A stretch of 64,000 nucleotides of DNA from Desulfurococcus mucosus DSM 2162 (lineage in GTDB: Archaea > Thermoproteota > Thermoprotei_A > Sulfolobales > Desulfurococcaceae): contig NC_014961.1 in the NCBI RefSeq assembly GCF_000186365.1, positions 1,116,001 to 1,180,000 on the forward strand, given 5' to 3'. Below the pieces are notes generated by a model, which ran no database searches, had not been told where the DNA came from, and saw only the letters and a program-made list of their open reading frames with translations. This document shows, in pieces, positions 11,776 through 62,876 of the stretch (position 1 is the stretch's first letter; each line of letters opens with the position of its first letter). The position numbers were made by a program, and so were the translations under genes.

Positions 11776-12219
11776 CTACTTCATCGCCACGAACCTGCTC
11801 GCCCTCGTAGCCTTGAGGCCGGGCTCACCGTGCGTCACCTTCTTCGTTGTCGGGCTGAACTCTCCCAGGTAATGCCCTATCATCTCAGGCGAGATCTTAA
11901 CGGGCACGAACTCCTTCCCGTTGTAAACAGCTATCGTGAGCCCCACCATCTCGGGGAGGACAACCATGTCTCTTACATGGGTCTTTATCACTGTCTTCTT
12001 CGCTAGCTCCGGGTCCCTGGCTATCCTCCTGATCTTCGCTAGGAGCTTTATCTGAGCCTTCGTCAACCCTCTCTTAAGACTCCTCCTCTGCCTCGCCGGC
12101 AGCAACACGACTAGGTCGTCCATGGACATGTTCAGTAATTCCTCCAGGGTCTTACCCCTATACTTGAACTTCCTCCACTCCACTGGCATGTCCTGTAAGC
12201 TCGCCGCCAAACCAACCAT
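11776..12219 (-). CDS. rps19: Ribosomal protein S19 (uS19)
   Basis: Small-subunit head protein uS19. The C-terminal half holds [20 protein letters not shown], then [20 protein letters not shown], the family signature. Length 147 aa. Unusually, the gene upstream is not L2 but a VWA-domain protein, and a TATA box inside the 3' end of that gene (12,264-12,274) can drive S19 and the genes after it. Confidence 0.97.
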
Positions 12220-12256: not shown

Positions 12257-14164
12257 CTAGACTCTATTTTTAAGATTTATCCTCCTTTTTAAAATGTTCG
12301 GTATGTCCTCAGGGTTCTCGACAACAACGATGTCGCATCCAGCGCCCCTATACCTCTCCACGGTAGCGCTCTCCGTGCCGCGTGGAACCACGAGGATCAC
12401 CCTCAGCCCTTTTTCAACGAGCCAGCGTGCAACGAGCCATGGCTCCGTGTCTGGGACAGTCTGCTTCAGGTCGCTGAACACGAGTATCGTCTTCGAATCC
12501 GCCCTCGAGGCTAGCTCGCCGGCGCGCCTCAGTGCCTCCGATATATTAGTGTACCCCTTGAAGCCCTCCGTGTATAGTTTCTCCAGGAAGCGGGCGAGCA
12601 CCAGGCTGGTTTTCTTAAAGGGGGATCTATATACATGGGGTTTCTCACTGAATAAGACTATGTGCGACACCACTGGGAACACAGCGGCAATGGATAGCAT
12701 AGACCACACTGCGAACCTAGCCATGCTACCGCTGACATCCACCACCCCTATAACGCGTTGAACCCTCTCCCGCCTCTTGAACACGGCCTCGTTATCCAGG
12801 CGCACCCACTTATACAGGGTGCCCCTGACCTCGAGCCTCCCCCTTACACTGGTCTTCCTACGCCTCCACGTGAACCCTCTCCCACCCCTCATATAGTTGA
12901 GCAGCCTCATCCCTATGGCTATCGCGCGTTTAACCACAGCTGGATCCAGCCCGCCGCTCCTAGAGTACTCCTCACCCAGCTTCACCGACAGCAACTCCAG
13001 TGCATCGAAGCCTGCCTCCCTACCGAGGAGGAAGAGCATCTTCTTCTCGTCACCGTTGAGAATGCTCTCGAGCAGGGGTCTATGCCTGGGCTCAAGGGCT
13101 CCGGCATCGATTCTCTCAGCAATGTGTACTGCATACGCCTGGAAGGATGGATCACGTGTCAGGAGGTACTCTAGGTAGCTTCCTATGGCTTGCCCAAGCA
13201 TCACTCTGGAGGCTAGCTCCCTGTCAACGCTGCCCAGGCTCCTCAGCTCGGCTAGTGAAATAGGGTTTAAATGCTTGAAGAAGCCGGGGTCCCTTATCCT
13301 GCGCCTGAGGCTCCTTAGAACCTCCCATCTCTCCCTGAGGGGCAGTCTCTCTATCTCCCCAGCTAGCTCCCCCTCCCTTCCCTTCACGTAGTCCTCAACC
13401 GAGTCGATGAATGGAAGCAGGTGGGGTGGCACAGTGGTCTTCAAGCCCTTAAGGGCCTTAGCTATGACTCCTTCAAGCCTCCGCGCCTCCTCCGGTGAGG
13501 GAACCCAGCCCTTCGCAATACGCCTCCTCACCTCGCTGGCTAGTCTTTCATCAACCCTCTGGTCGAAGCCATGGTACCTTTCAGCCAGGGTGATTAAATC
13601 CCCTAGCCCGGCGTTCCCCAGTAGCTCCTCCGTGATCACCTTGCTCCAGAGGCTGCTCGGCACCTCGGCCAGGAAGCGCCCTATGTCGCCGAGCCCTAGC
13701 TCTCTCTCCGAGCCGGCAGGATGCCTTGACAGCTCCCTTCTATCCACTATCAGGGAGCCGTTTGGATGCCTTCTAAGGATCCCTGTCTTCCTCATCCATA
13801 TATATGTTAGAATACCCCTCCTCGAAGACGACTCCGTGAGCAGGCTCCTGGACGTAGTGTAACGCGTCTTAGCCAGCCTCCTCCAGACCCCCTCATCTAT
13901 CTGAAACAATTCTGCTGCAGGGGGTGGAGGCGTCCGTGCAGCCCTGGTTAAACCAAGGGATTCAACGAGCTCGCCGTCGAGGCTGTCCGCTACATTCCTC
14001 CCGGCGAGCAGGGCGATCGCTAGCCTCATCTTAGCGTAGAGTACTAGCTTGTCGACCCCGGCACACCTGAACTCGGCTAGCCTGGCCCCCAGGGCTTCCA
14101 GCTCCCTTCTAACACCCTCATCCACGAGCCTCCTTAACTCCTCAACGCTTACCGAGTAGTTCAT
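12257..14164 (-). CDS. VWA-domain protein (CoxE-like), partner of MoxR ATPase
   Basis: A 635-aa protein with a long helical N-terminal region (residues 1-450) and a C-terminal von Willebrand factor A domain. The MIDAS metal site VVDVSGSMARF (DxSxS) is near residue 475, and the later FSDLKQTVPD resembles the conserved second MIDAS region. Such proteins work with MoxR AAA+ ATPases as metal- or protein-remodelling pairs. The start at 14,164 (MNYSVSVEELRRLV) is chosen over an upstream one because it keeps the overlap with moxR to 23 nt. Its position between L2 and S19 is unusual. The client is unknown; ribosome assembly is only a guess from position. Confidence 0.85.
   Translation of the reverse strand: MNYSVSVEELRRLVDEGVRRELEALGARLAEFRCAGVDKLVLYAKMRLAIALLAGRNVADSLDGELVESLGLTRAARTPPPPAAELFQIDEGVWRRLAKTRYTTSRSLLTESSSRRGILTYIWMRKTGILRRHPNGSLIVDRRELSRHPAGSERELGLGDIGRFLAEVPSSLWSKVITEELLGNAGLGDLITLAERYHGFDQRVDERLASEVRRRIAKGWVPSPEEARRLEGVIAKALKGLKTTVPPHLLPFIDSVEDYVKGREGELAGEIERLPLRERWEVLRSLRRRIRDPGFFKHLNPISLAELRSLGSVDRELASRVMLGQAIGSYLEYLLTRDPSFQAYAVHIAERIDAGALEPRHRPLLESILNGDEKKMLFLLGREAGFDALELLSVKLGEEYSRSGGLDPAVVKRAIAIGMRLLNYMRGGRGFTWRRRKTSVRGRLEVRGTLYKWVRLDNEAVFKRRERVQRVIGVVDVSGSMARFAVWSMLSIAAVFPVVSHIVLFSEKPHVYRSPFKKTSLVLARFLEKLYTEGFKGYTNISEALRRAGELASRADSKTILVFSDLKQTVPDTEPWLVARWLVEKGLRVILVVPRGTESATVERYRGAGCDIVVVENPEDIPNILKRRINLKNRV
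12264..12274 (-). promoter_or_regulatory. Internal promoter (TATA) for the S19-L14e part of the operon
   Basis: Minus-strand CTTAAAAATAG lies within the last codons of the VWA gene, about 45 nt before the S19 start codon. A start site about 25 nt downstream would give a leader of roughly 20 nt. It would keep ribosomal transcription going after the inserted MoxR/VWA genes. Confidence 0.55.
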
Positions 14165-15065
14165 CCACCAGCTCCTCGTCCTCAGGGTTCTTGTAGAGGA
14201 CCGCCCTGCCGGCCTCACGGAGGTCGTCTTCATCAGCCTTCTCCTTGCCCTTGATATCTGAGAGCAGTGCTGTGAGCGTCAGCCATGTAACCGTGTCAGA
14301 GACTCCTGGCTTGTAAACGGCTTTCTCCCTGAGGGCACCGACCACCTCTATAGCCTTGAACACCAGGTTGTCGCTGAGCCTCCTGGCGAGGTCCCCTAGC
14401 TTCAGCTCCAGTATCTCGTATTCCTCCTGGGTGGACGGGTAGTGGAACTCCACTCTGACGACTCTCCTCAGGAAGGCGTCGCTTAACTCTCCTTGAGCTA
14501 TGTCAAGGGGGTTACTGGTGAAGACCACTTGGAACCCGGCTCCCCTCTGCCTATACACTTTCTTCAACTCAGGTATTATTATCCTCCTCTTATCGATCAC
14601 GTCTAAGAGGAGGTTCTGGAACTCCTCACTACTCCTCCTGATCTCGTCGACGAGCACCCCGGTCTCCATTATTAAGCCGGCTAACAGGGGACGGGGGATG
14701 AAGCTCTCCTCGTTGAAACCCTTAGCCATAGCCATAGCTGGGTGGAAATCCCCTATCACCCTGTACTCATCGTAGTTCTCGCTGCAGGGTAGTATGAAGG
14801 GCTTCTTACCGCTCCACAGGTAGAGGATGGCTTCACCTATCTCGGTCTTACCTGTGCCAGGGGGTCCCTCGTAGAGGACAGGCCTGTTGTTTATGAAGGC
14901 TGACACAGTTATGTAGACTACGTGTGGCTTAACCAGTAGCTTGAACTCCCTCCTCAACGCGTCGATAATGGCCTCAGGGTCCCTAACCGGTTGCCTAGAC
15001 TCAACTACCTGCCCATATATCTCGTATACCTTTCTCACAACTGGGTCATCTACTCCTGTAAGCAT
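14142..15065 (-). CDS. MoxR-family AAA+ ATPase
   Basis: A 307-aa AAA+ ATPase of the MoxR group. Walker A GPPGTGKTE at residues 67-75, Walker B VLVDE at 137-141 followed by the helix RRSSEEFQNLLLDVI, sensor VVFTSNPLDIAQGELSDAFL, and an arginine-finger region FLRRVVRVEF. The VWA gene overlaps its 3' end, so the two are a coupled pair. The pair interrupts the ribosomal operon between L2 and S19 in the same direction, with a TATA box at 15,128-15,139. Confidence 0.92.
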   Translation of the reverse strand: MLTGVDDPVVRKVYEIYGQVVESRQPVRDPEAIIDALRREFKLLVKPHVVYITVSAFINNRPVLYEGPPGTGKTEIGEAILYLWSGKKPFILPCSENYDEYRVIGDFHPAMAMAKGFNEESFIPRPLLAGLIMETGVLVDEIRRSSEEFQNLLLDVIDKRRIIIPELKKVYRQRGAGFQVVFTSNPLDIAQGELSDAFLRRVVRVEFHYPSTQEEYEILELKLGDLARRLSDNLVFKAIEVVGALREKAVYKPGVSDTVTWLTLTALLSDIKGKEKADEDDLREAGRAVLYKNPEDEELVDELLGKR

Positions 15066-15127
15066 GGTTTCAAACCCTTACTGGTTGAGCCGGTAAAGAG
15101 GGCTCTACTTCAAGAGGAATGTGTTAG

Positions 15128-15139
15128 GGATTAATAATG
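15128..15139 (-). promoter_or_regulatory. Probable TATA promoter of the moxR-VWA pair
   Basis: Minus-strand CCATTATTAATCC just after the L2 stop codon. A start about 25 nt downstream would leave a leader of about 40 nt before moxR. The 90-nt gap here is long for this operon, which supports a separate transcription start. Confidence 0.5.
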
Positions 15140-18247: not shown

Positions 18248-19072
18248 CTATATATTTTCAACCCGTCTCAACCAGTAATTCACGAGTCCAAGCGTCGCTA
18301 AAACCGCTTCCTCAGTCCTAATGGAGACAACCCTCTGCCCCGGTATAGTGTTCCAGACGACGTCAACGTAGTCGAGGAGGTTGAAGCCCTCGGCCTCAGA
18401 GATCTCGAAGAGGCCCCGTCTAGGGCCGCCGAAGAATAAGGCAATCCTTCCCGCTCTTCCCAATGATTCAAGCTCCCTCTGGGCCGGCGGAGCCCCCGCC
18501 TTATCCGTCGCCACCTTGAAGACATCTCCTTCTACACTTGTCAAGGCCTCCATTAGAGACTCCTTGAATGAAAGGGAGGGACCCATATAGTACTCCACGT
18601 CAAGGCACTCCACCAGCCTTCCATCCGTGTCAACCACCCTCACCTTCGTAAAGCCAGGCCTACACTCGTTTAATGGAGTATACTTCTCCTCATTGTCAAG
18701 GTACACTACGACCCCACCCCTCTCCCTCGCAGCGAAACCCACCCTTTCCTCACCTTTCACAGGCTTACCCTTGACATCGAAGTCGAGGAGCCTTATAGGT
18801 GGCAGCGCACCCACGTAGCGGAGCAGGGGGCTCCGCGGTACAAGCCTCCTCCTTAAGTAGGGGGGAGTGAAGAAGTATCTCCAATGCAGCTCTATGAGCT
18901 GCCTGTGCCCCATGTACTCCCCGTGCGGCGTCCCGTATTCACGGTAGAAGACTACCTCGCTGACCCCGAATATCGATGTCCACCGGGCTACCTGATGTAT
19001 CCTAAGGGACTTCAGGAGCAGGGTTGACTCAACGGAAAGTATACTGGATGGTAGAACTATGCTTACCTGCAT
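18248..19072 (-). CDS. Putative SPOUT-class RNA methyltransferase
   Basis: A 274-aa protein of the archaeal SPOUT group found upstream of L3 (COG2106 type), expected to methylate RNA using S-adenosylmethionine with a knotted fold. It begins MQVSIVLPSSILSVES, with SLRIHQVARWTSIFGVSEVV matching the family start. Near the C-terminus GRIALFFGGPRRGLFEI and IPGQRVVSIRTEEAVLATLG resemble the two knot-forming motifs. The gene neighbourhood supports the family call. The RNA target cannot be read from sequence. Confidence 0.8.
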   Translation of the reverse strand: MQVSIVLPSSILSVESTLLLKSLRIHQVARWTSIFGVSEVVFYREYGTPHGEYMGHRQLIELHWRYFFTPPYLRRRLVPRSPLLRYVGALPPIRLLDFDVKGKPVKGEERVGFAARERGGVVVYLDNEEKYTPLNECRPGFTKVRVVDTDGRLVECLDVEYYMGPSLSFKESLMEALTSVEGDVFKVATDKAGAPPAQRELESLGRAGRIALFFGGPRRGLFEISEAEGFNLLDYVDVVWNTIPGQRVVSIRTEEAVLATLGLVNYWLRRVENI

Positions 19073-62554: not shown

Positions 62555-62876
62555 CGCGGCCGGGCGCCCCACTCACGCCCCGGAACTGTGACGGGGTGAG
62601 GAAACTCCGCACACCCCGTGGCAGTGCGGCCCCGTAAGGGGCACGGGCAGTCCCCGTGGCTACGGCACAGAAACGGTACGGCCACCACTGGATGGCGGTG
62701 AAGACGGCCGAGCCCCGGTGACGGGGTTGCCAAGCCGTTGAGGACGGTGGTGGAGGCGTTGAAACGGCCGTCCCGCATGGTGCAAGGCCCGGTCCCGGTG
62801 TGAGGGCCACGCGACCGGTGTGGGCCGCATAGACAAATGTGGGGTGAACAGAATGCGGGTTACGGCCCGGCCGCGC
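62555..62876 (+). ncRNA. rnpB: RNase P RNA
   Basis: Catalytic RNA that removes tRNA 5' leaders. The ends pair perfectly as P1: CGCGGCCGGGC (62,555-62,565) with GCCCGGCCGCG (62,865-62,875). Conserved regions are visible in order: GAGGAAACTCCGC near the 5' end (CR-I), GGCACAGAAACGGTACGGCC (CR-II/III), GGACGGTGGTGGAGGCGTTG and the 3' CR-V block AGACAAATG with GAACAGAATGCGGGTTAC. About 320 nt, usual for archaea. It is followed 4 nt later by the convergent tsr3 gene. Protein partner Rpp29 is at 10,134-10,412. Confidence 0.9.

Follow-up and report, generated by a model that had tools for sequence, protein, structure and literature searches.

Desulfurococcus mucosus encodes a MoxR-type AAA+ ATPase and a MIDAS-bearing VWA protein between the ribosomal protein genes L2 and S19, and the place of this gene pair beside S19 was conserved far beyond D. 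mucosus when the L2/S19 interval was compared across the order and the class. Judged from trees and gene order, the pair beside S19 predates the split of the orders and is an ancestral arrangement that was lost several times. Both proteins displayed the domains, motifs and fold of a MoxR/VWA remodelling pair. As a tentative reading, the pair may act on ribosome maturation, perhaps on the S19-bearing small subunit, while a non-ribosomal client is nearly as likely. A full-text literature search confined to freely accessible main articles turned up no paper that describes such a pair within the S10 cluster of archaea; because of that scope, novelty is not proven.

Gene models and architecture of the pair

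The window, i.e., the whole stretch of 64,000 nucleotides analyzed, corresponded to bases 1116001-1180000 of a single 1,314,639-base contig. Genes on its minus strand were ordered L3, L4, L23, L2, moxR, VWA, S19, L22 and S3, followed by the rest of the S10/spc cluster (Table 1). The end of L2 lay 90 bases from moxR, the moxR and VWA reading frames overlapped by 23 bases, and 37 bases separated the VWA stop from the S19 start. The VWA start (ATG at 14164) was chosen by orthologue alignment, the mechanical ORF beginning at 14233, and the end at 15139 given in an earlier note on this DNA covers the putative moxR promoter, which is non-coding. Compared with the congener G030, dN/dS was 0.06 for moxR and 0.20 for VWA (0.02 to 0.07 for S19, L2 and L3), so both genes are under purifying selection. 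The moxR and VWA genes are thus real, and they share the strand of L2 and S19, as the earlier note had proposed.

Table 1. Features of the moxR-VWA locus, in window coordinates
Feature	Position	Strand	Description
Ribosomal protein S19	11776..12219	-	Conserved neighbor; Pfam Ribosomal_S19 117.8 bits
VWA protein	12257..14164	-	635 aa; N-terminal part helical, VWA domain C-terminal; 48 bits to Pfam VWA_CoxE (cut-off 26.4)
Two TATA-like boxes before S19	12267..12294	-	Inside VWA 3' end; TTTTAAAA 12287-12294, CTTAAAAA 12267-12274
MIDAS DVSGS (aa 476-480)	12725..12739	-	Completed by T539 (12548-12550) and D565 (12470-12472), giving DxSxS-T-D
Low-confidence arm (aa 428-468), candidate pore finger	12761..12883	-	Directly precedes strand leading to MIDAS
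MoxR-type AAA+ ATPase	14142..15065	-	307 aa; Pfam AAA_5 58.9 bits (cut-off 22); AlphaFold pLDDT 93
MoxR Walker B GVLVDE (aa 136-141)	14643..14660	-	Orthologue alignment
MoxR Walker A GPPGTGKT (aa 67-74)	14844..14867	-	Invariant in 21 orthologues
Weak TATA-like TTATTAAT	15130..15137	-	Between L2 and moxR; 6.2 bits, no better than shuffled sequence in D. mucosus
Ribosomal protein L2	15156..15875	-	Upstream neighbor in the window's family; Pfam Ribosomal_L2_C 149 bits

Elsewhere in the window, an archaeal RNase P RNA was detected at 62556-62874 (plus strand, 164 bits), and a putative RNA methyltransferase gene (PF02598) at 18248-19072 (minus strand) lay upstream of L3, heading the cluster in many relatives too. 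Six other MoxR-like places were found in the D. mucosus genome, with no ribosomal neighbor within 1.5 kb.

The AAA+ core of MoxR, whose orthologues were 50-86% identical, comprised Walker A, Walker B, the sensor 1 asparagine and the arginine finger; in the orthologue alignment, D140 occurred with E141 in at least 90%, TSN 183-185 was invariant and R200/R201 were present. The protein fitted Pfam AAA_5 better than AAA_3 (PF07726; 23.7 bits, under the curated cut-off of 27) and scored far under the cut-off of the GvpN model of the CbbQ/GvpN/NorQ (CGN) subfamily (NCBIfam TIGR02640; 37.9 against 266.8 bits). Two features of MoxR-type AAA+ proteins (clade 7) were present, namely the helix-2 insert, seen as extra elements at model residues 95-125 with NorQ and CbbQ fitting over most of the chain, and a VWA-domain partner gene, here overlapping moxR. 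The insert sequence, YDEYRVIGDFHPAMAMAKGFNEESF, did not contain the NorQ motif GRxLL/IxxxxT. A helix-2 family signature, GDFHPxMAxxxGFxExSFxPR, was recovered in slightly relaxed form in 30 of 38 orthologues and in none of 11 distant MoxR proteins. The best structural matches of the MoxR model were CbbQ2 (Z 24.3, 2.5 A, 255 residues) and NorQ (Z 23.8), followed more distantly by McrB, dynein and S. pombe Mdn1 (Z 16.5).

The MIDAS residues D476, S478, S480, T539 and D565 of the VWA protein were invariant in 21 aligned orthologues, DxSxS was found in 38 of 38, and VWA_CoxE (PF05762) was matched by all 21 VWA orthologues examined at E of 0.01 or below. The AlphaFold model was poor overall (pLDDT 68), with a clear VWA domain at residues 467-632 (Z about 16). 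Whole-protein identity dropped to 18-36% outside the genus, the N-terminal two thirds diverging fast. The arm at residues 428-468, about 40 residues long and with pLDDT under 50, carried a conserved RGRxxVRxT motif. In NorD, the pore finger corresponds to residues 403-448 within the VWA region 336-638, and one strand joins this finger to the MIDAS (PMC9976466, PMC13036017). Taking the NorQ motif GRxLL/IxxxxT for a fingertip motif, with GRxxVR of the arm as its counterpart, proved wrong, as the NorQ motif sits in the helix-2 insert of that protein. Neither Foldseek nor VIA-align listed a NorD chain for the VWA model, a result of little weight given the poorly predicted N-terminal part. Ro60 was a marginal VWA-profile match (E 6e-4, residues 372-615 only) and was rejected.

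Among known systems, NorQ/NorD, a NO reductase activase, shares with the pair a single-AAA MoxR and a separate VWA protein with N-terminal domain, C-terminal VWA and full MIDAS; the low-confidence arm of the pair lies ahead of the MIDAS strand, where the pore finger of NorD is located. However, identity was about 20%, the helix-2 motifs differ, and the pair has a ribosomal neighborhood without NO reductase genes. CbbQ/CbbO, a rubisco activase, provided the closest structural match (CbbQ2) and a cso-CbbQ profile score of 30.4 bits, but identity was 18% and no rubisco genes occurred near the pair. The RavA/ViaA and APE0892/APE2220 MoxR subfamilies also combine a MoxR AAA+ with a VWA partner gene; orthologues of the MoxR here were cleanly set apart from paralogues (E below 1e-80 against above 1e-21). 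Rea1/midasin (Mdn1), which acts on pre-60S ribosomes in eukaryotes, likewise combines AAA+ with a MIDAS-VWA and belongs to the same AAA branch. Its six AAA domains, however, are fused into a single polypeptide of about 4,700-4,900 residues, whereas the pair has one AAA domain and a separate VWA chain. Midasin ranked first by profile (E 9.5e-24), a score that sums six AAA domains; it is no closer than CbbQ, since its best single domain reached 28.5 bits and its fold ranked below CbbQ and NorQ. The midasin match is a resemblance in parts, not membership. A defense system was also rejected, PADLOC giving E 0.003 at best.

Distribution, place beside S19 and history

Of 197 genomes from the order, 80 carried a MoxR orthologue (E of 1e-80 or below); they belong to families f1 (including Thermogladius), f4, f6 (including Aeropyrum and Acidilobaceae), f8, f9 and f10. 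Other MoxR proteins in those genomes all scored above 1e-21, so the orthologue group is clean. VWA matches occurred in 78 of the 197 genomes and adjoined moxR whenever both were on one contig. A class-wide search added MoxR orthologues in f12, f13 and f14, families of other orders, while 300 genomes sampled from the phylum contained no MoxR match at 1e-40 outside the order. The possibility raised earlier that the pair is found only here can thus be dismissed, MoxR being present in these 80 genomes and three further families of the class. The pair was absent from f2, f3, f5, f7 and f11, from genus g3 of f1 and from one f9 genome, and is dispensable, since several families live without it.

Where moxR and S19 were on one contig (62 genomes), the two lay within 5 kb of each other in 59; a stretch of 5 kb to both sides covers about 0.7% of a 1.5-Mb genome. 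The three exceptions were f6 genomes (G046, G054 and G062). VWA and S19 were on the same strand and at most 300 bp apart in 49 of 66. L2 lay within 5 kb of moxR in 42 of 51 genomes. Within f6, S19 was near moxR in 15 of 18 genomes and L2 in none of six, so the link to S19, not that to L2, outlasted the break-up of the operon.

Several layouts were observed. The order L2-moxR-VWA-S19 characterized f1 and most of f9, whereas moxR-VWA-S19-L22-S3 with L2 elsewhere was found in f10, f12, f14 and most of f6. In f8 the pair adjoined L2-S19, convergent or downstream; in f4 it was on the opposite strand, about 1-2 kb from S19; in f13, S19 was 4-6 kb away. The L2-S19 adjacency, which the earlier note ranked among the most conserved in archaea, is not universal in the class: in several families most genomes had S19 standing apart from L2, and the adjacency was broken in several families without the pair as well. 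In many f6 genomes, genes for IleRS and a Cas4-like PD-(D/E)XK nuclease lay directly upstream of moxR-VWA (L054:10051-13895, L063:5026-8879, L140:9357-13180), and some (g38, g42) kept the pair with these genes but not with S19. S19 of f2 carried a 13-residue insertion after the ARRSL segment, absent in the other families compared (L148:4870-5364, L149:5102-5575, L150:8438-8929, L158:10224-10736).

The MoxR tree grouped by family, as did a tree of 14 ribosomal proteins, an agreement on which a recent horizontal insertion was rejected; pairwise distances correlated with ribosomal distances (r 0.73 for MoxR, 0.62 for VWA). The ribosomal tree placed genus g3 within f1, and about 100 bases separate L2 from S19 in this genus, so that the pair was most simply deleted there. 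In f8, f4 and part of f1, a small gene of 115-160 aa that matched no Pfam family stood head-to-head with moxR (L040:9641-9994, L041:8249-8611, L042:5459-5803, L047:4528-4998, L050:10199-10669, L051:4945-5421). It is absent from the D. mucosus genome and is possibly a third component or regulator. In three f3 genomes without the pair, the small gene was head-to-head with S19 at about 80-120 bases; this is the remnant expected after deletion of moxR-VWA from a small-gene/moxR-VWA-S19 layout. The family-wise trees, the f3 remnants and the occurrence in other orders speak against the proposal of an insertion peculiar to this operon and for an ancestral layout with later losses.

Promoter signals around the pair

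Upstream regions of 33-38 orthologous loci were scored with a TATA-like matrix taken from general knowledge of archaeal promoters and untrained on these data; since the loci are related, the p values given here overstate independence. Regions upstream of S19 averaged 7.3 bits (33 loci) against 3.6 for nine in-operon control genes (207 values, p 1e-10), on par with the 7.1 bits before L3, which leads the L3-L4-L23-L2 run. The boxes before S19 were kept in the congener L038, and similar ones occurred in other f1 genomes. The comparison thus supports well the TATA box that had been placed for S19 within the end of the VWA gene. The module did not bring this signal in: lineages that lack the pair mostly display it too, so the boxes belong to S19. 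Regions upstream of moxR averaged 4.8 bits (p 0.003; in f1 alone 5.8, p 0.0004). In D. mucosus itself, the suggested promoter before moxR is weak. In relatives with a divergent gene at moxR, a promoter must be present there.

Candidate clients and the meaning of the pair

The two proteins probably form a complex and would be produced together with the ribosomal proteins. Based on homology and position, remodelling by a finger in the pore is the best mechanical reading, following the VWA/MoxR coupling described for other pairs (PMC9976466, PMC13036017). Six MoxR subunits would form a ring, by homology, and the VWA protein would plug its pore with a finger that immediately precedes the MIDAS strand. 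The metal of the MIDAS would grip an acidic residue of the client, and ATP hydrolysis would twist or pull it. The client would be the ribosome or a precursor; the small subunit that carries S19 is the simplest candidate. Domains and motifs, described above, bear out the fold class, while we infer the ribosomal client only from conserved gene position.

Known MoxR/VWA clients include NO reductase, rubisco, methanol dehydrogenase, CO dehydrogenase and respiratory complex I; ribosomes are not among them. A ribosomal client, which we favor without considering it probable, is suggested by an S19 linkage that, despite operon break-up, persisted in multiple families spanning two or more orders, and by the lack of ribosomal neighbors at the other six MoxR-like places in the genome. 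Yet nothing but gene position ties the pair to ribosomes. The clusters of ribosomal genes are highly stable, and a gene once trapped upstream of S19 could remain there passively. Moreover, f2, f3, f5, f7, f11 and genus g3 live without the pair, and the fast divergence of the VWA N-terminal part is unusual for a ribosome-binding surface, though it could track different partners. The f6 pairs standing with IleRS and the Cas4-like nuclease gene without S19 also count against a ribosomal client, and fit a general-housekeeping chaperone for an enzyme or membrane complex, sited in the highly expressed translation neighborhood only for its expression level. Such a chaperone is a serious, slightly weaker candidate: the characterized MoxR/VWA pairs on the lists of PMC3893208 and PMC13036017 all serve enzyme or membrane complexes, and repeated loss fits a dispensable client. 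However, expression alone does not single out S19, whose link to the pair outlasts operon break-ups and crosses orders, and no enzyme-complex gene regularly accompanied the pair in the mapped loci.

Passive hitchhiking, in which the pair was trapped between L2 and S19 and kept because clusters rarely break, with no functional or regulatory link, would agree with the frequent losses and with the TATA-like signal that S19 has of its own in most lineages, so that the pair need not share its transcript. It is nevertheless improbable: L2 parted repeatedly from the pair, whereas the spacing between S19 and VWA remained at 40-300 bp, and in f8 and f4 the pair switched orientation or side and still lay within about 4 kb of S19, which passive capture would not maintain through such rearrangements. 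Metal loading of ribosomes or ribosomal proteins, the other role raised in the earlier note, is very improbable. NorQD does drive the insertion of iron (PMC13036017), and a divalent metal is bound by the MIDAS, but this metal serves as a ligand to dock the client and is not itself cargo (PMC9976466), and no metalloprotein or metal-transport gene was recognized beside the pair in the mapped loci, leaving nothing in support of it. Returning to the ribosomal reading, its boldest form, in which the pair would be a two-protein archaeal counterpart of Rea1/midasin remodelling ribosome precursors and the first MoxR/VWA system with a ribosomal client, appears rather unlikely.

The pair offers named genes for tagging or deletion, and its family signature and natural losses allow comparison. 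MoxR/VWA machines are known to activate single enzymes or respiratory complexes. If the ribosomal reading is true, the ribosome would join their client list, and a simple system of two proteins would be at hand to ask how AAA+ motors guided by a MIDAS, among them the giant midasin of eukaryotes, came to work on ribosomes.
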